DNA of 64,000 nt from Mycolicibacterium nivoides. GTDB taxonomy: Bacteria; Actinomycetota; Actinomycetes; Mycobacteriales; Mycobacteriaceae. A program made the translations under genes and the position numbers. Positions 32,669 to 41,650 of the stretch are shown one piece after another. Where the stretch lies: positions 6,212,403 to 6,276,402 of the forward strand of contig NZ_CP034072.1 of the NCBI RefSeq assembly GCF_003855255.1. The letters run 5' to 3'. Positions within the stretch are counted from its first letter, which is position 1, and the number at the start of each line of letters is the position of its first letter. The notes beneath the pieces are model-generated. The model was not told the origin of the DNA, ran no database searches, and saw only the letters and a list, made by a program, of their open reading frames with translations.

Positions 32669-33934
32669 ATGGCTCGGTTTCCCAAGCCGGCTGAAGGCAG
32701 CTGGACTCAGCACTACCCGGAGCTGGGCACCGGCCCGGTGTCGTACGAAGATTCGATCAGCCCGGAGATCTACGAGCTGGAGCGCAAGGCGATCTTCAAA
32801 CGTGCTTGGCTGAATGTCGGCCGGGTCGAACAACTTTCACGCAAGGGCAGCTACTTCACCCGGGAGATGAAGGCCGCCAACACCTCGATCATCGTGGTAC
32901 GCGGCAAGTCCGGCGAGGTCAAGGCCTTCCACAACGTCTGCCGTCACCGGGGTAACAAGCTGGTGTGGGACGACATGCCGCTGGAGGAGACCAGCGGGGT
33001 CTGCCGGCAGTTCACCTGCAAGTACCACGCCTGGCGTTACGACCTGGACGGCGAGCTCACCTTCGTCCAGCAGGAGGCCGAGTTCTTCGACCTGGACAAG
33101 AGCCGCTACGGCCTGGTTCCCGTGCACTGCGAGGTGTGGGAGGGGTTCATCTTCGTCAACTTCGCCAAGCTCCCCGAGCAGTCACTGCGCGAATTCCTGG
33201 GCCCCATGATCACCGATCTGGAGGGCTACCCGTTCGACAAGATGACCTCGAGATTCACCTATCGCTCTGAGGTGAAGGCGAATTGGAAGCTCTACATGGA
33301 CGCCTTCCAGGAGTTCTACCACGCACCCATCCTGCACGCGAACCAATCCCCCACCGCCTACTCGAAGGCCGCCGCGGAGTCCGGTTTCGAGGCACCGCAC
33401 TACCGGATCGACGGACCGCACCGGTTGGTGAGCACGTCCGGCGTGCGGGCCTGGGAGATGCCCGACGAGATGCGCAAGCCCATCGAAGACGTCTGCCAGA
33501 GCGGACTTTTCGGCCCATGGGACAAACCGGATCTCGGCGAGATGCCGGCCGGGCTGAATCCCGCCAAGTGCGATCCGTGGGGACTGGACTCGTTCCAGCT
33601 GTTCCCCAACTTCGTCATGTTGTTCTGGGGCCAGGGCTGGTATCTGACGTACCACTACTGGCCGACCTCGTTCAACACGCACACCTTCGAGTGCACGCTG
33701 TACTTCCCGCAGCCACGCACACCGCGGGAGCGGTTGGCCCAGGAGCTGGCTGCCGTCTCGTTCAAGGAGTACGGCCTGCAGGACGCCAACACCCTGGAGG
33801 CGACGCAGAGCTCCATCGAGACCCGGGTGGTCGACGAGTTCCTGCTCTGCGATCAGGAGATCCTGCTTCGGCACCTGCACAAGGAGACCGCGGCCTGGAT
33901 CGAGGACTACCAGCGCAAGACCGCGGGAGTGTGA
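32669..33934 (+). CDS. Rieske non-heme iron oxygenase, alpha subunit
   Basis: The 421-residue oxygenase has a canonical Rieske centre: C91-R-H93 (NVCRHRG) and C117-K-Y-H120 (CKYHAWRYDLDG). The catalytic domain has the mononuclear iron histidines in MDAFQEFYHAPILH. It needs electrons from a ferredoxin-type reductase, for which the protein encoded at 37304 is the likely source. A 109-residue companion follows by 4 bp. Its paralogue at 39169 lacks the Rieske His ligands. Substrate unknown; the surrounding hydrolases and dehydrogenases suggest an aromatic or alicyclic acid. Confidence 0.93.
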   Translation: MARFPKPAEGSWTQHYPELGTGPVSYEDSISPEIYELERKAIFKRAWLNVGRVEQLSRKGSYFTREMKAANTSIIVVRGKSGEVKAFHNVCRHRGNKLVWDDMPLEETSGVCRQFTCKYHAWRYDLDGELTFVQQEAEFFDLDKSRYGLVPVHCEVWEGFIFVNFAKLPEQSLREFLGPMITDLEGYPFDKMTSRFTYRSEVKANWKLYMDAFQEFYHAPILHANQSPTAYSKAAAESGFEAPHYRIDGPHRLVSTSGVRAWEMPDEMRKPIEDVCQSGLFGPWDKPDLGEMPAGLNPAKCDPWGLDSFQLFPNFVMLFWGQGWYLTYHYWPTSFNTHTFECTLYFPQPRTPRERLAQELAAVSFKEYGLQDANTLEATQSSIETRVVDEFLLCDQEILLRHLHKETAAWIEDYQRKTAGV

Positions 33935-33938
33935 ACCG

Positions 33939-34268
33939 ATGAGCACGAAACTGCCTGCCGAATTCGCCGACCTCGAACAGTTTTCGGACTGGTGCCTGTC
34001 CAGTGAGCCGCAGCGCTACAGCAAGCGGTTGGGCAGCACCATGACCGAGATGCAGGCGTTCTATGACGCGATCACGCCGCGAGCCGAGGAAGCGATCAGC
34101 TTCTGCGACAAGTTCAGCCTCGACACCTTGCCCGAGGACGTGCTCAACCTGATGCACCTGCTGTATTCGATGATCACGGTGTCGTTCCCGGTGGAGTGCT
34201 GGAAGCAGCCACGGGTGCCCGATTCCGGTGCGACATCGTTGGACTGCGTCGCCGAGCCCGTGCCGTGA
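33939..34268 (+). CDS. small Rieske-oxygenase companion protein
   Basis: The 109-residue protein of unknown family is paralogous to the one encoded at 40440. Shared features are the E-(Y/L)-W-C-L-(S/P) segment, (K/R)RL(G/A)STM(T/P)EM..FYDA, E(E/D)AI.(F/Y)CDKF.LD and LNL(M/L)HL(L/V)YS. The sequence is helical and has no Fe-S motif, so it is not a ferredoxin. Each copy follows a Rieske alpha gene within a few bases. A small structural (beta-like) or substrate-delivery subunit is inferred. Confidence 0.8.
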   Translation: MSTKLPAEFADLEQFSDWCLSSEPQRYSKRLGSTMTEMQAFYDAITPRAEEAISFCDKFSLDTLPEDVLNLMHLLYSMITVSFPVECWKQPRVPDSGATSLDCVAEPVP

Positions 34269-35530
34269 CCGAGGCCGAAGCCGCGACGACGATTCTGCGC
34301 GCTGCCCGTTGGGTGGACGTGGCCGGCGGCCAGGTCCGGACCCCTGCGGTCGTGCTCATCGAGGGCAACCGGATCTCCGCGGTCAACCCCGAAGGGCCAC
34401 TGCCGGATTCGGCCACCGTCATCGATCTGGGTGACGCCACCCTGCTGCCCGGCTTGATGGACATGGAGCTCAACCTGCTGATCGGCGGACCGGGCAATCC
34501 CGGCGGTCTGCCGACCCCCATGCACGGCGTGCAGGACGACCCGGCGTATCGGACCCTGCGCGGCGCCGTCAATGCCCGCACCACACTGGATGCCGGGTTC
34601 ACCACCGTCCGCAATCTGGGCCTGATGGTCAAGACCGGCGGTTACCTGCTCGACGTCGCCTTGCAGCGGGCGATCGACCAGGGTTGGCACCAGGGACCGC
34701 GCATCTTCCCGGCCGGTCACGCCGTCACGCCCTATGGCGGGCACCTCGATCCCACGGTGTTCCAGCGGCTGGCACCGGGCATCATGCCGCTGTCGGTCGC
34801 CGAGGGCATCGCCAACGGAGTGCCGGATGTCATCGCATGCGTCCGCTACCAGATCCGCCACGGCGCCAAGCTGATCAAGGTGTCGGCATCGGGTGGCGTG
34901 ATGTCCCACAGCACCGCGCCGGGCGCCCAGCAGTACTCCGATGCCGAGTTCGCCGCGATCGCCGACGAGGCTCACCGCGCCGGTGTCAAGGTCGCAGCTC
35001 ACGCCGTCGGGGACACCGCGATCCAGGCGTGCATCCGGGCCGGCATCGACTGCATCGAACACGGATTCCTGGCCAGTGACGAGACAATTCAGATGATGGT
35101 CGACCACGGCACCTTCCTGGTCTCGACCACCTATCTCACCGATGCGATGGCTATCGACCGCATCGCACCCGAACTGCGCAAGAAGGCCCTCGACGTCTTC
35201 CCACGGGCGAAAGCCATGCTGCCCAAGGCCATTGACGCCGGGGTGCGCATCGCCTGTGGCACCGACGCGCCCGCGGTCCCACACGGCGAGAACGCCAGGG
35301 AATTGTGTGCCCTCGTCGAACGCGGCATGACCCCGATGCAGGCGTTGCACGCCGCGACGGTGGTGGCCGCGGACTTGGTCGATGCCGCCGACGAGCTGGG
35401 GCAGCTGGCCCCGGGCTACCTGGCCGACGTCATCGCCGTTCCCGGCGATCCCAGCGTGGACATCGCGACGACGCTCGATGTCCGGTTTGTGATGAAGGAC
35501 GGAGTCATCTACAAGAACACGGTGCGCTAG
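34265..35530 (+). CDS. amidohydrolase-family protein with altered metal motif
   Basis: The 421-residue protein resembles imidazolonepropionase/prolidase-type amidohydrolases. The carboxylated-lysine region AKLIKVSASGG, AAHAVGD, IEHGF and CGTDAP are all present. The usual first metal motif HxH after PGLID(M/A) is replaced by E68-L-N70 (LPGLMDMELNLL). GTG at 34265 overlaps the companion gene stop as GTGA, so it belongs to the Rieske operon. It may bind a single metal or have changed activity; a hydrolase call is therefore only provisional. Confidence 0.85.
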   Translation: MTEAEAATTILRAARWVDVAGGQVRTPAVVLIEGNRISAVNPEGPLPDSATVIDLGDATLLPGLMDMELNLLIGGPGNPGGLPTPMHGVQDDPAYRTLRGAVNARTTLDAGFTTVRNLGLMVKTGGYLLDVALQRAIDQGWHQGPRIFPAGHAVTPYGGHLDPTVFQRLAPGIMPLSVAEGIANGVPDVIACVRYQIRHGAKLIKVSASGGVMSHSTAPGAQQYSDAEFAAIADEAHRAGVKVAAHAVGDTAIQACIRAGIDCIEHGFLASDETIQMMVDHGTFLVSTTYLTDAMAIDRIAPELRKKALDVFPRAKAMLPKAIDAGVRIACGTDAPAVPHGENARELCALVERGMTPMQALHAATVVAADLVDAADELGQLAPGYLADVIAVPGDPSVDIATTLDVRFVMKDGVIYKNTVR

Positions 35531-35563
35531 CGTCGAGTCAAGGCGTGTGGCAGGAGTACGAGG

Positions 35564-36016
35564 ATGGATCTGACCGAGAACACCTTGTGGTGGCTCAAAC
35601 AGGCGTTCTATTTCTCGCTCACCGAGGTCAACGAGTCGGTCAAAGAGCACGGGGTCACCACTGCCCAGATCGGCGTCCTGCGCCAGTTGACCAATCAACC
35701 GGGCCTGTCCGGCGCCGAGTTGGCCCGTCGGCTGCTGATCACCCCGCAGGGCGTGCAACTCGCACTCACCGCGTTGGAGAAGCGGGGCCTGGTCGAGCGC
35801 AAACAGGATCCCCAGCATGGGCGCATTTTGCAGGTCTTCCTCACCGACGAAGGCCGGGCGGTGGCCTCGGCCGTCGTCGCCGATGCCGTCGCGGCCCATG
35901 AGCGGGTGTTCGGCGTACTCAGTGACGAGGAGCAGGAGCAGTTGAAGGCACTCCTCCGCCGGGTGATCGAACAAGGTACGGGCCACACACCGCACTCCGA
36001 TCACATCGACCCATGA
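35564..36016 (+). CDS. MarR-family transcriptional regulator
   Basis: The 150-residue protein has the winged helix LSGAELARRLLITPQGVQLALTALEKRGLVERK with the wing QDPQHGRILQVFLT. GAGG lies before the ATG. It sits at the end of the first Rieske operon, 33 bp after the amidohydrolase stop, between the two occurrences of the shared quasi-palindrome. This makes it the best candidate regulator of the whole catabolic cluster. Confidence 0.88.
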   Translation: MDLTENTLWWLKQAFYFSLTEVNESVKEHGVTTAQIGVLRQLTNQPGLSGAELARRLLITPQGVQLALTALEKRGLVERKQDPQHGRILQVFLTDEGRAVASAVVADAVAAHERVFGVLSDEEQEQLKALLRRVIEQGTGHTPHSDHIDP

Positions 36017-36046: not shown

Positions 36047-37144
36047 CTATTTGCGGCGTCGCCGGCCGATGCTCAGCAGCCAGTCGGGAAACGCCAACCC
36101 ATGGATGATCCGTTGCGTCCGGAAGTACTGGCGCGGAAGCGATGCCGTGTTGTAGGGCAGGCCGTACTTCTCGCACAGTTCCCGCACGCGAACGCTGATC
36201 TGTGGGAGGCGGTTGCTCGGCAGGTCGGGGAACAGGTGGTGCTCGATCTGGTAGCACAGGTGACCGCCCGAGATCGCCAGCAAGGGGCTCGCGTTGAAGT
36301 TTGCGGTCCCTAGCATTTGCCGGAGATACCACTCGCCTTTGGTCTCGTCCTTGACCACCGACGGGTCGAACGTCTCGGCACCGTCGGGGATGTGCCCGCA
36401 GATGATGTTCACGTACACCCACAGGTTCCGGAGCACATTCGCCGTGATGTTGGCTGCCAGAGTCCGACGCCACCGGCGCAGGCTGAGTGCGGGCAGGAGC
36501 ACATAGTCCTTGCTCAACTGGCGGGCGATCTTTCCGAGAAACTTCCTCTTCTCCACTGCGACAGCGGCCGGCGTGTCGACCCGCTCGCGCTCGGAGCGGA
36601 TGCCGTGCAGACCGATGCCCCATTCGAAGGTCGCTGCCAGCAACAGGTTTCGTAACGGTGTCGCGAGGTACGCCCAGCGCCACGGTTGGTCCGGGGTCAC
36701 CCGCAGTAAGCGGTAGCCGATGTCGTCGTCCATACCCAGCACGTTGCTGAAGACGTGGTGCCGGTAGTTGTGCGAGTACCGCCACTGCGCGGAATGCCCG
36801 ACCATGTCCCACTCCCAGGTGGTGGAGTGGATTTCGGGATCGTTCATCCAATCCCACTGGCCATGGGAGATGTTGTGGCCGAGTTCCATGTTCTCGATGG
36901 ACTTCGCATATGCCAGCGCGCACGTTCCCACCAACCAACCGGTCTTCGACCGACTGCCGGCGATCATCAGCCGCGCCGCGACGTCGAGCGCCCGCTGGAA
37001 ATGGATCACGCGCCGGATATAGGCCGCATCCTCCGCCCCGAGCGACTCTTCGATGTCTCGGCGGATCACGTCGAGTTCATATGCGATCTCTTCGACGTCC
37101 GCGCTGCTGAGGTGCAGATAGGTGGAGACATCGGCGATCGCCAT
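36047..37144 (-). CDS. membrane fatty acid desaturase (DesA3-like)
   Basis: The 365-residue membrane di-iron desaturase has the three histidine boxes HNISH, HNYRHH and QIEHH in the right order and spacing. Hydrophobic stretches around the boxes are short compared with DesA3, and the N-terminus lacks the usual first pair of membrane helices seen in longer members. It diverges from a flavin/Fe-S reductase gene, like the Rv3229c/Rv3230c partnership, so that reductase is its probable electron donor. ATG at 37144 is used. Confidence 0.88.
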   Translation of the reverse strand: MAIADVSTYLHLSSADVEEIAYELDVIRRDIEESLGAEDAAYIRRVIHFQRALDVAARLMIAGSRSKTGWLVGTCALAYAKSIENMELGHNISHGQWDWMNDPEIHSTTWEWDMVGHSAQWRYSHNYRHHVFSNVLGMDDDIGYRLLRVTPDQPWRWAYLATPLRNLLLAATFEWGIGLHGIRSERERVDTPAAVAVEKRKFLGKIARQLSKDYVLLPALSLRRWRRTLAANITANVLRNLWVYVNIICGHIPDGAETFDPSVVKDETKGEWYLRQMLGTANFNASPLLAISGGHLCYQIEHHLFPDLPSNRLPQISVRVRELCEKYGLPYNTASLPRQYFRTQRIIHGLAFPDWLLSIGRRRRK

Positions 37145-37273
37145 CAAGGTGTCCTCGGGTGGGTGCAGCGTTGGAGCGGTGCAATCCGGGCCACCGCGAG
37201 GGCCAAACCGCAGCCTAGAGGTTCGGGCTGGACGACTGGTAATCGCGGTGGTGGATATCTACCACTTGAGATT

Positions 37274-37303: not shown

Positions 37304-38362
37304 ATGGAGACATCGACGACACCCCGCACGGAATCCGCCGACGTGATCGACGCCGACGGGTTCACTCCCGTGCGGATCAAGCAGGTGATCCGGGAGACCT
37401 CCGACGCGGTCTCACTTGTTCTCGACATCCCCGCACCGAGCGTCGACCGGTTCCGCTATGCGGCAGGGCAATTCATCACCATTCGAGCGACAGTCGACGA
37501 GGGCGAACACCGTCGGTGCTATTCGATGTCGTCGTCACCGGCCGTCGATCCCGATCTGCGGATCACCGTCAAGCGTGATCGCGACGGCCTGGTCTCCAAC
37601 TGGATCAACGACTCCGTCAGCGTCGGCGATGAACTGCACGTGGCACCGCCCGAGGGGCGCTTCGTCCTCACCACCACCGAGCGCAACGTCGTCACGTTCG
37701 CCGGCGGCAGCGGCATCACCCCGGTGTTCTCGTTGGTGCATTCGGCCCTGGCCACCACCCGCAAGGTCCGGTTGTTCTACGCCAACCGCAACCTCGACTC
37801 GGTGATCTTCCGGGAGGCGCTGGCGACTCTCGCCGAGGGCAACAACGGACGCTTCGCAGTGCACCACCATCTGGACGAGATCGACGGAATGGTTTCGACC
37901 GAACACATCGCCCGCTTCATCGCCGACAGTGCCCGCGACAACACGGACTACTACATCTGCGGCCCCGCCCCGTTCATGGACACCGTCGAACGGGTCCTGC
38001 TCGACACCGGGATCCCCAAGCAGCAGATACATCTGGAGCGGTTCAGTGTCGCCGCGATCCCGCCACCCGACGCAACCGAACCCGTGGTCACCGAAGAGGT
38101 GACGATCGAACTCGGCCGCAGCACCGCCACCGCGCCGTACCGCGCCGGCAACACCCTGCTGCAGACCGCGCGACTGGCCGGCCTCAAAGCGCCGTCCTCG
38201 TGCGAAACCGGCTCGTGTGGAACGTGTATGGCGCAGGTGGTCGAGGGCAGCGCACGCATGCTCAACAACGACGCTCTCGACGACGACGAGGTCGCCGAGG
38301 GCTGGGTGGTGACATGCCAGGCACTGCCCACCAGTCGCACAGTGAGGGTGGTCTATGAGTAG
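37304..38362 (+). CDS. ferredoxin-NADP reductase-type oxygenase reductase (KshB/Rv3230c-like)
   Basis: The 352-residue three-domain electron-transfer protein has the FAD domain RCYSMSSSP (flavin motif RxYS), the NAD domain with GGSGITPVFSLV and ICGPAPFMDTVE, and a C-terminal plant-type [2Fe-2S] domain CETGSCGTC...C (C-x4-C-x2-C plus a distal Cys). It transfers electrons from NAD(P)H to a terminal oxygenase. Candidates are both Rieske proteins and the divergent desaturase. The SDR gene overlaps its stop by 8 bp. A shared operator lies directly upstream. Confidence 0.92.
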   Translation: METSTTPRTESADVIDADGFTPVRIKQVIRETSDAVSLVLDIPAPSVDRFRYAAGQFITIRATVDEGEHRRCYSMSSSPAVDPDLRITVKRDRDGLVSNWINDSVSVGDELHVAPPEGRFVLTTTERNVVTFAGGSGITPVFSLVHSALATTRKVRLFYANRNLDSVIFREALATLAEGNNGRFAVHHHLDEIDGMVSTEHIARFIADSARDNTDYYICGPAPFMDTVERVLLDTGIPKQQIHLERFSVAAIPPPDATEPVVTEEVTIELGRSTATAPYRAGNTLLQTARLAGLKAPSSCETGSCGTCMAQVVEGSARMLNNDALDDDEVAEGWVVTCQALPTSRTVRVVYE

Positions 38363-39113
38363 TACGAGTGTGAACAGGGTGGCCGTGGTGACCGGCGGGG
38401 CATCGGGCATGGGTGAAGCGACGTGCCACGAGTTGGGCCGGCGCGGCCATCAGGTCGCCGTCCTCGACGTCAATGCCGATGCCGCCCAACGTGTCACCGA
38501 TGACCTGCGGTCGGCCGGTGCCACCGCCTTCGCGGTCGGTGCCGACATCACCGACCGGGCCGCGGTCGAAGAGGCCTTCGGCAAGGTCCGCAGCGAACTC
38601 GGGCCGGTCGGCATCCTGGTGACCAGCGCGGGGATGTTCGGGTACGCCTCCTTCGCCGACATCACCGAGCAGTCCTGGGCGCAGATGGTAGAGGTGAACC
38701 TGAGCGGGACGTTCCGCTGCTGTCAGGTGGCCCTGCCGGACATGGTCGAAGCCGGGTGGGGTCGCATCGTGATGATCTCCTCGTCGAGCGCCCAGCGCGG
38801 TACGCCGTTCGCGGCCCACTACGCGGCCTCCAAAGGTGCGCTGTTGACCCTGACGAAATCACTGGCGCGCGAGTACGCGGCACACGGCATCACGGTCAAC
38901 AACATCCCGCCATCGGGTATCGAGACCCCCATGCAGCACCAGTCGCAAGCTGCGGGCTACCTGCCGCCCAATGAGACGATCGCCGCCAACATCCCCCTCG
39001 GCAGGCTCGGAACCGGAGCGGATATCGCTGCCGCCGTGGGGTTCCTGTGCTCCGAGGAAGCCGGCTTCATCACCGGCCAAACCCTCGGGGTGAACGGCGG
39101 CGCAGTGATGTAG
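38355..39113 (+). CDS. SDR-family oxidoreductase
   Basis: The 252-residue classical SDR has the nucleotide motif TGGASGMGE, SAG (NNAG equivalent), catalytic S in MISSSS and Y-x3-K in HYAASKGAL. It most likely oxidises an alcohol or cis-diol produced by one of the Rieske enzymes. It overlaps the reductase gene by 8 bp and precedes the second Rieske gene by 55 bp. Confidence 0.92.
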   Translation: MSSTSVNRVAVVTGGASGMGEATCHELGRRGHQVAVLDVNADAAQRVTDDLRSAGATAFAVGADITDRAAVEEAFGKVRSELGPVGILVTSAGMFGYASFADITEQSWAQMVEVNLSGTFRCCQVALPDMVEAGWGRIVMISSSSAQRGTPFAAHYAASKGALLTLTKSLAREYAAHGITVNNIPPSGIETPMQHQSQAAGYLPPNETIAANIPLGRLGTGADIAAAVGFLCSEEAGFITGQTLGVNGGAVM

Positions 39114-39168: not shown

Positions 39169-40437
39169 ATGGCAACCAAGTGGCCCAAGCCGGCTGAAGG
39201 CTCCTGGACCGAGCACTACCCCGATCTGGGTACGGGCCCGATCCCGTTCCGGGACTCAATCTCCGAAGAGTTCTACGCCCTGGAGCAGGAGGCCATCTTC
39301 AAGCGGGCCTGGCTCAACATCAGCCGGGTCGAGGAGACGCCCGAGGTCGGCAGTTTCATCACTCGACAGATCGAGGCCGCCGCCGCGTCGCTGCTCCTGG
39401 TGAGAGACCATGACGGCGGCATCCGCGCCTTCCACAACCTGTGCCGCAGACGCGGCCACGCGCTGGTACCCCCAGACTTCCGCGCCACCGAATTACGCAG
39501 CACCGGCAGCGAGTTCGAATGCCGCCACTGTGGATGGCGTTACGGTCTGGACGGAAAGCTGATATCGCTGCCCGACGCCGACCGGTTCACCGACCTGGAT
39601 ACCGCGGACTACGGACTGGTCGGAGTGCACTGCGACGTCTGGGCCGGCTTCGTGTTCGTCAACTTCGACCGCGAACCGCGCCAGAGCCTGCGCGACTTCC
39701 TCGGCCCCATGGTGACCGCACTCGACGACTACCCGTTCGACAAGCTGACCGAGCGATACGACTGGGTGGCACACAACAACAGCAACTGGAAGATCTTCGC
39801 CGATGCCTTCCAGGAGTATTACCACGTACCGTCGCTGCACACCCAGCAGGTGCCGCCGGAAGTACGGGATCCCAACGCCGGCTTCACCTGTGGGCACTTT
39901 CAACTCGACGGTCCGCACCGGCTCGTCTCGACGGCCGGCACCCGGCGCTGGCTACTGGCGCCGGAATACATGTACCCGATCGAGCGGGCCACCCAGAGCG
40001 GTCTGGTGGGTCCGTGGCGGACCCCCGACATCGGTGAACTGCCGATGCACGGACTCAACCCTGGCAACATCGAACCGTGGGGGATCAGCAACTTCCAGAT
40101 CTTCCCCAACCTGGAGATCCTGATCTACGGCGGCTGGTACCTGCTCTACCGCTACTGGCCGACCTCGCACAGCACCCACCGCTACGAGGCGTTCACCTAC
40201 TTCCATCCAGCCCGCACCGTGCGAGAACGGATCGAGCACGAGGTGGCCGCCGTGGTGCTCAAGGAATTCGCCCTGCAGGACGCCGGCATGCTGGGCGGCA
40301 CCCAGGCCGCGCTCGAGTACGACGTCGTCGACGACTACCCGCTCAGCGATCAGGAGATCCTGGTGCGGCACCTGCACAAGATGGCGGTCGACTGGGTCGA
40401 GGACTATCAGCGTGACCGCGTACCGGCGGGAGCGTGA
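39169..40437 (+). CDS. Rieske-oxygenase alpha paralogue with non-canonical cluster ligands
   Basis: The 422-residue protein is homologous over its whole length to the oxygenase encoded at 32669, and its catalytic-iron region is intact (ADAFQEYYHVPSLH). The Rieske motifs are changed: C92-R-R94 (NLCRRRG) replaces CxH and C118-R-H-C121 (ECRHCGWRYGLDG) replaces CxxH, so both histidine ligands are lost. C92, C118, H120 and C121 remain as possible ligands. The frame is open and the rest is conserved, so this is not simple decay. It may hold a different cluster, none, or act as a partner subunit. Confidence 0.88.
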   Translation: MATKWPKPAEGSWTEHYPDLGTGPIPFRDSISEEFYALEQEAIFKRAWLNISRVEETPEVGSFITRQIEAAAASLLLVRDHDGGIRAFHNLCRRRGHALVPPDFRATELRSTGSEFECRHCGWRYGLDGKLISLPDADRFTDLDTADYGLVGVHCDVWAGFVFVNFDREPRQSLRDFLGPMVTALDDYPFDKLTERYDWVAHNNSNWKIFADAFQEYYHVPSLHTQQVPPEVRDPNAGFTCGHFQLDGPHRLVSTAGTRRWLLAPEYMYPIERATQSGLVGPWRTPDIGELPMHGLNPGNIEPWGISNFQIFPNLEILIYGGWYLLYRYWPTSHSTHRYEAFTYFHPARTVRERIEHEVAAVVLKEFALQDAGMLGGTQAALEYDVVDDYPLSDQEILVRHLHKMAVDWVEDYQRDRVPAGA

Positions 40438-40439
40438 CG

Positions 40440-40775
40440 ATGACCTCCGCCCGACTCCCCAGCGCCTTCGCCGAACTGGAACCGTATGCCGAAATATGGT
40501 GTCTGCCGACGGAGACCGAACGGTGGGATCGTCGCCTCGCCAGCACGATGCCGGAGATGCACGAGTTCTACGACGCCTTCTTCCCGCGCGTCGAGGATGC
40601 GATCGAGTACTGCGACAAGTTTCCGCTCGACGACATACCCGACGATGCGCTCAACCTGCTGCACCTGGTCTATTCGCTGATCATGGTCGCCATGTCGGTG
40701 GAGATCATGCACCAACCGGCCCCGACCGACTCCGCCGATGCCGTCATGATCCGCACCGGCGAACCAAAGCCGTAA
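40440..40775 (+). CDS. small Rieske-oxygenase companion protein, second copy
   Basis: The 111-residue paralogue of the protein encoded at 33939 shares STMPEMHEFYDAFFPR, EDAIEYCDKFPLD and LNLLHLVYSLIMV-type segments. ATG at 40440 has GGGAG seven bases upstream; the overlapping GTG at 40434 is less well placed. It follows the unusual Rieske gene directly, which repeats the gene pair seen in the first module. The family is unknown. Confidence 0.8.
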   Translation: MTSARLPSAFAELEPYAEIWCLPTETERWDRRLASTMPEMHEFYDAFFPRVEDAIEYCDKFPLDDIPDDALNLLHLVYSLIMVAMSVEIMHQPAPTDSADAVMIRTGEPKP

Positions 40776-40804: not shown

Positions 40805-41650
40805 ATGAGTGTGTTGACCATCAACAAGCTGACCGCTTCGGTGGGCGCCGAGGTTGTCGGCGTCGACCCGGAACGGCTGGGCACCGACGACAGCCTGGGG
40901 GCCGCGGTGCTGGACGCCCTGGAGGACAACGGGGTGCTGGTGTTCCACGGCCTGCACCTGAATCCCGAAGCTCAAGTGGCCTTCGCACGGCGGCTGGGCG
41001 AGATCGACCGCTCAGCCGATGGCCATCACCCGGTGTCGGGCATCTACCCGATCACGCTGGACAAGACGAAGAACAAGGCCGCCGAATACCTCAAGGCGAC
41101 GTTCGACTGGCATATCGACGGTTGCACCCCCATGCATGACGAATGCCCACAGAAGGCCACGGTGCTGTCCGCCCTGGAAGTCGCCGCGCGGGGAGGGGAA
41201 ACCGAGTTCGCCAACACCTACGCGGCCTACGATTCGCTCGATGAAGCCGAGAAGGAGCGCTACCGCGGGTTGCGGGTGGTCCACTCCCTGGAAGCCTCGC
41301 AGCGGCGCGTCTATCCGAATCCGACCCCCGATCAGCTGAGCCGCTGGCAGGCCCGGCCAACCCACGAGAACCCGCTGGTGTGGACGCACCGAAACGGCCG
41401 AAAGTCCTTGGTACTGGGCGCTTCGGCGGACTACATCGTCGGGATGGATCGCGACGAGGGCCGCACGCTGCTTGCCGAACTCCTCGCCCATGCCACTACC
41501 GCAGACAAGGTGTACAGCCACAAGTGGTCGGTCGGGGACACCGTCATCTGGGACAATCAGGGCGTCCTGCACCGCGCCGCGCCCTACGAACCCAACTCCC
41601 CCCGCCACATGCTGCGCACTACGGTGCTCGGCGACGAACCGATTCAATAG
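40805..41650 (+). CDS. TauD/TfdA-family Fe(II)/2-oxoglutarate dioxygenase
   Basis: The 281-residue enzyme has iron ligands H103-x-D105 (FDWHIDGC) and H256 (QGVLHRAAPY). The 2-oxoglutarate-binding arginine lies in RHMLRTT (R267 or R271). Family members hydroxylate small acids (taurine, 2,4-D, alkyl sulfates) and often release a leaving group. It is the last gene of the second Rieske operon. The substrate is not predictable. Confidence 0.9.
   Translation: MSVLTINKLTASVGAEVVGVDPERLGTDDSLGAAVLDALEDNGVLVFHGLHLNPEAQVAFARRLGEIDRSADGHHPVSGIYPITLDKTKNKAAEYLKATFDWHIDGCTPMHDECPQKATVLSALEVAARGGETEFANTYAAYDSLDEAEKERYRGLRVVHSLEASQRRVYPNPTPDQLSRWQARPTHENPLVWTHRNGRKSLVLGASADYIVGMDRDEGRTLLAELLAHATTADKVYSHKWSVGDTVIWDNQGVLHRAAPYEPNSPRHMLRTTVLGDEPIQ

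Follow-up and report, generated by a model that had tools for sequence, protein, structure and literature searches.

The DNA analyzed here, called the window below, is a stretch of 64,000 nucleotides from Mycolicibacterium nivoides (contig NZ_CP034072.1, positions 6,212,403 to 6,276,402), and it sits in a 6.9-Mb single-contig genome. It encodes two paralogous alpha subunits of the Rieske oxygenase type, which we call A1 and A2. Our subject is A2, in which the ligands of the Rieske cluster are altered and the mononuclear iron site is intact. The features that matter most are the following:

39169..40437, + strand: A2, Rieske-oxygenase alpha subunit with altered cluster ligands and an intact mononuclear iron site
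39442..39459, + strand: first ligand loop of A2, C92-R-R94-R95-G-H97 (canonical C-x-H)
39520..39531, + strand: second ligand loop of A2, C118-R-H120-C121 (canonical C-x-x-H)
39814..39840, + strand: bridging Glu216 and iron ligands His219 and His224 of A2
40279..40281, + strand: iron ligand Asp371 of A2
32669..33934, + strand: A1, paralogous alpha subunit (53% identity to A2) with CxH/CxxH and the iron site intact

An earlier note on this DNA had described A2 as having C92-x-R94 and C118-R-H120-C121, with both canonical His positions changed, and re-reading the codons gave the same residues. In the first loop these are C92 (tgc, 39442-39444), R93 (cgc), R94 (aga, 39448-39450), and H97 (cac, 39457-39459), and in the second loop C118 (tgc, 39520-39522), R119 (cgc), H120 (cac, 39526-39528), and C121 (tgt, 39529-39531). 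The frame is open over 422 amino acids and the mononuclear iron site is kept, both as the note had it: A2 matches Ring_hydroxyl_A (PF00848) at 170 bits and has the His-His-Asp site H219/H224/D371, with a bridging acidic residue, Glu216, beside the iron ligands. The Rieske domain of A2 is also recognized by Pfam (31 bits, versus 54 bits in A1), yet it is without the standard C-x-H and C-x2-H motifs, both His positions being replaced, and the 2Cys/2His ligand set of a Rieske [2Fe-2S] cluster is absent. The loops of A1, which the note had called intact, read CRH and CKYH and are canonical.

The best NCBIfam match of A2 is GbcA (NF058607), at 93 bits against a curated cutoff of 670; judged by a score so far under the cutoff, A2 is not a GbcA equivalog. 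The nearest named proteins are from Mycolicibacterium and include one from M. peregrinum (96%) and a partial M. fortuitum sequence (96%). The occurrence of the same residues in many genomes and independent assemblies leaves practically no room for a sequencing error or a strain-specific mutation. Some source annotations label altered A2 members "(2Fe-2S)-binding protein," which may be wrong for the cluster.

Ligand states were compared across 279 non-identical A2 sequences, recognized by a catalytic-domain signature. The searches mostly began from the window protein and a four-Cys relative, which enriched the sample near the window, so the counts of states are not population frequencies. The ligands are intact in 135 of these sequences and altered in 144, contrary to the possibility, raised in the earlier note, that all orthologues might carry CxH and CxxH. 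Its question of whether R94 and C121 are fixed has a mixed answer: both are common to close relatives, including M. peregrinum and M. smegmatis proteins, but the orthologues as a whole are mixed, with a large group altered. Writing H94 and H121 for the canonical His residues, the altered states comprise CxH+CxxC (46 sequences), loss of the first His with CxxC and His97, as in the window (41 sequences), CxxC+CxxC, the four-Cys form, present for example in Mycolicibacter (43 sequences), and more degraded sites (14 sequences). Of the 279, 58 retain H94 but not H121 and 86 have neither; the reverse, H94 lost while H121 is kept, occurs in none.

The Cys positions and the iron site behave differently from the His ligands. 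Among the 144 altered sequences, C92 is kept in all, C118 in 141, and a Cys is present at 121 in 131, while residues that are near-invariant neighbors in intact A2 (R114, Q115, and Y120) have turned over. All 43 altered sequences with Pro93 have four Cys. Only one of the 144, a broken gene at locus L186, departs from the iron triad plus Glu216, which the other 143 have; in a first set of 305 distinct alpha sequences, covering the A1 type, A2, and some additional paralogues, every one carries the triad and the bridging Glu. Canonical ligands are the rule in sequences that lack the A2 signature, which are A1, other paralogues, and three proteins closer to A2: all 95 have them in a first set and 151 of 153 in a larger one, where the other two are split-frame pieces (L142 and L177). 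As to membership of the four-Cys form in a zinc-ribbon family, no significant Pfam match appeared in the three proteins scanned: two had zinc-ribbon matches only at an E value of about 0.2, and Rieske was below the cutoff in two and not listed in one. A separate oddity is the A2-type protein P0135 (Nocardia callitridis), which keeps both His residues and has an unusual first loop, C-P-H followed by one residue fewer, and a second loop reading C-R-C-H.

The main basis for placing the change of H121 before that of H94 is the class missing from all 279 sequences, together with the many CxH+CxxC sequences. An IQ-TREE tree of the catalytic domain only, with 133 A2 representatives and three A1 sequences as the outgroup, unites 61 of the 68 altered representatives (clade support 90/88); the other seven are six CxH+CxxC sequences that form a group of their own and a lone H121N. 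The fewest changes are three at position 121 and six at position 94 on the finished tree (four and seven on an unfinished one). How many times H121C arose is uncertain, since a quicker tree of 210 A2 sequences moved some of the CxH+CxxC groups to other places. In both trees, the H94-less sequences of the window's own group lie among CxH+CxxC ones. In the group leading toward the four-Cys form, H94-less sequences (P0069-like and P0083) branch, again in both trees, before the CxH+CxxC sequences P0072 and P0077, after which come further H94-less sequences and then the four-Cys clade, with several nodes weak. A clean stepwise ladder to the four-Cys form is not supported by this branching order in either tree.

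Altered A2 genes are regularly accompanied by an intact A1. An A2 orthologue (72 to 100% identity) was found in 21 of 61 genomes, and the same 21 have an A1 type (51 to 54% identity to A2); A1 is canonical in all 21 and A2 is altered in 7, so that intact A1 stands beside altered A2 in 7 of 7. Among 80 named loci, A2 is altered in 22, of which 21 have an intact A1 in the same locus, the single miss (L068) ending at a contig edge; 52 of the 58 loci with intact A2 have an intact A1, and the 6 with no long A1 are all at contig edges. For a third set, an exact 45-base A2 signature was located in 144 of 396 same-genus genomes, and regions were taken from 79 of the 144. A2 is altered in 29 of these 79, with an intact A1 in 28, and A1 accompanies intact A2 in 50 of 50, with one A1 split into two frames. 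The three sets overlap in part (e.g., L056 and G021), and their counts are therefore not summed. The exception in the third set is G174 (locus L186), a genome without A1, in which the best match (63%) resembles a different paralogue of other genomes; homology of the L186 A2 is limited to residues 10 to 279 inside a longer open frame, and of the other cluster genes tested, only the neighboring short-chain dehydrogenase is present in the 12.5 kb fetched. G174 is the only genome among the 79 without A1, and its broken four-Cys A2 is a natural remnant of the cluster. An A1 split into two frames was located at L076, 5513-6832 (M. asiaticum DSM 44297), and L142 looks like the same record.

Constraint also separates the two domains. 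The ratio of protein distances in the Rieske domain to those in the catalytic domain, with up to 600 pairs sampled per group, is 1.1 for A1 and 1.6 for intact A2, and it is 3.6, 3.7, 4.1, and 4.8 for four altered groups. Nonsynonymous-to-synonymous ratios (dN/dS, by Nei-Gojobori) for the Rieske and catalytic domains, respectively, are 0.20 and 0.06 in the window-type group (21 sequences), 0.23 and 0.08 in the four-Cys group (10 sequences, L186 left out), and 0.38 and 0.10 in the CxH+CxxC group (10 sequences), compared with 0.14 and 0.10 in intact A2 (first 25 taken) and 0.16 and 0.12 in the A1 proteins of altered loci (44 sequences). The two-domain ratio is thus 2.9 to 3.9 in altered groups versus 1.5 in intact A2 and 1.3 in A1, with a contrast of 3.5 (2.3 to 5.9) for the window type against 1.5 (1.05 to 2.3) for intact A2; in the window clade, the catalytic-domain value is about 0.05 to 0.06. 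Compared with the remainder of the protein, the altered Rieske domain is under weaker constraint, though it is still subject to purifying selection and does not evolve neutrally; the catalytic domain is strongly conserved.

The earlier note had suggested that C92, C118, H120, and C121 could make a 3Cys/1His set as in mitoNEET-type clusters. The 3Cys/1His part of this idea is compatible with the survey, in which the three Cys residues are present in most altered A2 and 46 sequences have CxH+CxxC with four candidate ligands, but the choice of H120 is less well supported. H120 is present in 34 of the 41 sequences in the H94-less state, with no firm contrast, and is less likely as the fourth ligand than H97, which is present in 41 of 41 (sequences without H94 and C95 and with C92, C118, and C121, the three Cys being present by definition of the state). 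A NEET-like set in the window's state would thus consist of C92, C118, C121, and H97, found in all 41. The ligand chemistry would be that of mitoNEET if a cluster exists in A2; the comparison is loose because the domain is a Rieske one, and mitoNEET-type proteins differ from Rieske proteins in fold and spacing.

Elsewhere, His97 occurs in 10 of 46 CxH+CxxC sequences and in none of the 135 intact, 43 four-Cys, and 14 degraded ones, two of the last (P0009 and P0033) having lost H94 without His97. When the tree is divided into four independent contrasts at supported branches, H94 loss is associated with His97 in 2.9 of them on average, against 0.1 in the opposite direction (sign test, P = 0.125 at best), and position 97 ranks first of 98 positions (2.84), with position 103 close behind (2.72). 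These patterns are no more than suggestive of a tie between His97 and H94 loss, and of a possible ligand shift. In an alignment, CntA has RGH at the place of His97 together with ordinary Rieske ligands, so His97 need not be a ligand.

The genes around A1 and A2 form a conserved cluster, whose other members in the window are as follows:

33939..34268, + strand: s1, companion of A1, 50% identical to s2
34196..35530, + strand: amidohydrolase, conserved in the cluster
35564..36016, + strand: MarR-type regulator, conserved in the cluster
37304..38362, + strand: reductase with FAD/NAD domains and a plant-type [2Fe-2S] domain, PaaE/GbcB-like
38355..39113, + strand: short-chain dehydrogenase (SDR), conserved in the cluster
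40434..40775, + strand: s2, companion of about 110 amino acids 3' of A2
40805..41650, + strand: TauD-type 2-oxoglutarate dioxygenase, conserved in the cluster

A separate companion of about 110 amino acids is encoded after each alpha gene, and the one belonging to A2 is retained, as the earlier note had stated. Neither s1 nor s2 has a Pfam or NCBIfam match, and their family is uncharacterized, with 972 homologues and no Pfam domain among the 120 listed; they may represent a third kind of subunit. Some homologues are labeled "Xaa-Pro dipeptidase," an unlikely label. Almost all of 100 loci contain the core A1-s1-amidohydrolase-MarR-SDR-A2-s2-TauD, whether A2 is intact or altered (64 to 66 of 66 loci with intact A2 and 26 to 27 of 27 altered loci for each core gene, with 7 loci unclassified), the counts for A1 and s1 including cross-matches to A2 and s2 at contig edges. 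The reductase is the likely electron donor. It is present upstream of A2 in 25 of the 27 altered loci and also occurs in 30 of the 66 intact loci and 1 of the 7 unclassified ones; it is missing from both four-Cys loci of this tally, and in four four-Cys genomes its best match has only 44 to 47% identity and is located elsewhere. The idea of a compensating reductase gained with ligand loss was rejected, as these counts show no clear tracking.

Other features of the region touch the cluster less directly. A fatty-acid desaturase gene is inserted in the cluster at 36047-37147 of the window; this insertion occurs in 10 of 27 altered loci, all of them close relatives of the window, and in the unclassified L056, and a 65% match to the desaturase is also present in one intact locus, L093. 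A third alpha paralogue lies elsewhere in the same genome (G000:C1:2495559-2496818; L054), with its own companion, 58% identity to A1, and canonical ligands. An antisense open frame of 647 codons (window 34061-36004, minus strand) overlies the amidohydrolase and MarR genes and is probably a high-GC shadow frame.

Known oxygenases suggest how A2 might be wired. CntA, the second-best match of A2 by sequence in the PDB, holds its Rieske cluster with C86, H88, C106, and H109 and its iron with H208, H213, and D323, with E205 as the bridging residue, according to the accessible part of PMC7948474. By motif and spacing, these correspond to C92, R94, C118, and C121, to H219, H224, and D371, and to E216 of A2. 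A2 is thus like CntA in its bridging Glu and His-His-Asp iron site and differs from it in that the Rieske ligands of CntA are canonical, a mapping by which A2 would keep the acceptor half of the wiring and have the donor half changed. The Rieske ligands of GbcA are canonical as well. In Rieske oxygenases, the cluster of one subunit passes electrons to the iron of the next (available portions of PMC7948474 and PMC12445004), and in CntA electrons cross between neighboring subunits of a head-to-tail trimer in which the bridging Glu205 is essential (PMC7948474, same portion). For naphthalene dioxygenase, the text available from PMC5407579 proposes an entry side at His83 and an exit via Asp205. Positions 94 and 121 of A2 match His83 and His104 of that enzyme. 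Asp205 contacts His104 there, and H121 of A2 would correspond to that His, which faces the bridging carboxylate of the adjacent subunit. The first ligand to change would then lie on the exit side, which is expected if A2 no longer needs to pass electrons on. A text search of PMC1847435 for subunit-bridge residues found nothing.

On balance we incline, with nearly as much doubt as conviction, to the view that A2 is an acceptor-only alpha subunit whose iron would be reduced by the cluster of A1 when the two form a mixed oligomer, and that most lineages retain a Cys-rich remnant of its own site. A1 and A2 would be two alpha subunits of one Rieske oxygenase system, and each would ancestrally have had both metal sites, the Rieske cluster and the mononuclear iron. 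A2 would then have lost its role as electron donor in a large group of relatives, the outer second-loop His (H121) changing to Cys first and the first-loop His (H94) being lost later, several times, usually with retention of a Cys-rich site (C92, C118, and C121 plus His97 or Cys95). A2 would still do chemistry at its mononuclear iron, which in a head-to-tail ring the Rieske cluster of a neighboring A1 would reduce through Glu216. The remaining Cys site would most likely be structural (Zn or Fe) or a low-potential cluster unneeded for turnover, and in some lineages it would have been lost. What we infer here is that the oligomer is mixed, which way electrons flow, and which metal is bound.

We favor such cluster sharing because the cluster ligands have altered again and again with the iron site constant and because an intact A1 accompanies altered A2; loss of H94 only where H121 is gone, the conserved pairing, and the relaxed constraint are likewise observed. 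Of a split or hetero-subunit Rieske oxygenase, in which the iron site and the donor Rieske site would lie on different polypeptides of one complex, what the genes show is the pairing and the complementary state. The earlier note had offered a similar idea, a lost cluster and dependence on the other alpha subunit, and the constant iron site and intact A1 in the three overlapping sets (7/7, 21/22, and 28/29) favor it; the part that fits less well is plain loss, as the Cys site is mostly kept.

Several points weigh against A2 as an acceptor-only subunit. Contact between A1 and A2 is presumed, and a trimer cannot alternate two subunits evenly, so that some sites would stay unserved. A1 keeps a complete iron site, which makes the division of labor one-sided. 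Conservation of C92 (144/144) and C118 (141/144) in altered A2 exceeds what simple loss predicts, dN/dS in the altered Rieske domain is still well below 1, and the intervals for that domain overlap (0.15 to 0.28 in the window type and 0.10 to 0.20 in intact A2). Furthermore, beyond the altered group, the majority of A2 sequences have unchanged ligands next to the same A1, so being paired with A1 does not in itself call for loss.

Oxygenase subunits that lack a Rieske cluster are already known, as far as the sources cited here extend. The precedent is NdmC of the P. putida CBB5 caffeine pathway, which has a mononuclear iron and no Rieske cluster of its own and is thought to receive electrons from a Rieske cluster on another polypeptide (accessible text of PMC4408171). 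The NdmC/NdmD/NdmE system differs in that the donor Rieske domain is fused to a reductase and a glutathione S-transferase-like (GST-like) protein is needed (same text), whereas the presumed donor of A2 is a complete paralogous alpha subunit and A2 keeps a recognizable, rebuilt Rieske domain. Chlorophyllide a oxygenase of Micromonas is likewise a Rieske oxygenase on two chains, going by the part of PMC9615114 at hand. That pair is eukaryotic, and its loss is reportedly complementary, whereas here A1 has both sites and A2 one. Kunugi et al. (2013) reportedly described the two sites as divided between the Micromonas chains, the Rieske site on one and the iron site on the other.

The strongest competitor, which we nonetheless regard as unlikely, is that A2 keeps a working altered cluster: a lower-potential 3Cys/1His [2Fe-2S] cluster at C92, H94 or H97, C118, and C121, or a rubredoxin- or zinc-ribbon-like site in the CxxC+CxxC lineage, with electrons still moving via A2's own kind. 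Engineering of the S. solfataricus Rieske protein ARF is a close parallel: in the accessible portion of PMC2946596, H64C assembled a low-potential 3Cys/1His cluster, the triple change H44I/K45C/H64C (CxxC+CxxC) gave a mononuclear Fe(Cys)4 site, H44C failed, and H44C/H64C was largely impaired. The natural A2 series uses the same ligand positions, passes through the same two states (3Cys/1His and CxxC+CxxC), and is without the change of the first loop alone that failed in ARF. The parallel has its limits, in that the ARF variants are laboratory mutants of a stand-alone Rieske protein, whereas the A2 states are natural and inside an oxygenase subunit, and none of the ARF mutants in that portion of PMC2946596 matches the CxR+CxxC state found in the window. 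The missing class (0/279), the four Cys residues that go with Pro93 (43/43), and the distribution of H97 (41/41 in the H94-less three-Cys state and absent from intact, four-Cys, and degraded sequences) fit a functioning metal site. They are offset by the 14 sequences that have no usable ligand at 118 or 121 and still keep the iron site, two of which (P0009 and P0033) have lost H94 without having H97, and by the relaxed constraint on the domain; moreover, loss of H121, if it is the equivalent of His104, should hurt donation first. The link between H97 and H94 comprises only four contrasts, with other positions scoring nearly as high, and H97 is present in only 10 of 46 CxH+CxxC sequences and stands beside canonical ligands in CntA.

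A broader proposal joins cluster sharing to these ligand states, and we put it forward tentatively, as possible though doubtful as a whole. A Rieske site in a working oxygenase subunit would have been rebuilt naturally from 2Cys/2His to 3Cys/1His (H121C), then by a shift of the His ligand from 94 to 97, and then to a four-Cys rubredoxin- or zinc-ribbon-like site, passing states that engineering showed to be possible and avoiding the one that failed; an intact paralogue feeding electrons across the interface would have freed it to do so.

That A2 is a non-catalytic or decaying subunit merely supporting A1 is quite improbable: its Rieske site is degraded and fast evolving, and one genome has only a broken A2, but the catalytic domain of the window clade is under strong constraint (dN/dS of about 0.05 to 0.06) and 143 of the 144 altered sequences retain an unchanged iron site, which a decaying enzyme would lose. 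Slightly less probable again is direct reduction of A2 iron, without the A1 cluster, by the plant-type [2Fe-2S] domain of the reductase or by another ferredoxin, as the extra Rieske domain of NdmD serves NdmC; this has a precedent in NdmCDE (PMC4408171, as far as its available text goes) and a suitable reductase upstream of A2 in most altered loci, but many intact loci have this gene too and the two four-Cys loci of the tally lack it, so that it does not simply track ligand loss, and the retention of A1 would be left unexplained.

Among the literature matches listed (titles and abstract openings, with subscription literature mostly uncovered), no description of the A1/A2 pair or of natural His-to-Cys or His-to-Arg changes in oxygenase Rieske domains appeared, which is weak evidence of novelty. 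If A2 is indeed an acceptor-only subunit, one subunit without a donor site and with an acceptor site would constitute a natural test of cross-subunit wiring, in culturable bacteria. The A2 series could likewise test whether the engineered archaeal Rieske states occur naturally, and it would show one metal site turning into another without loss of the protein. Should this series of metal sites be real in the protein, A2 would be more than a variant of the known Rieske-less subunits.
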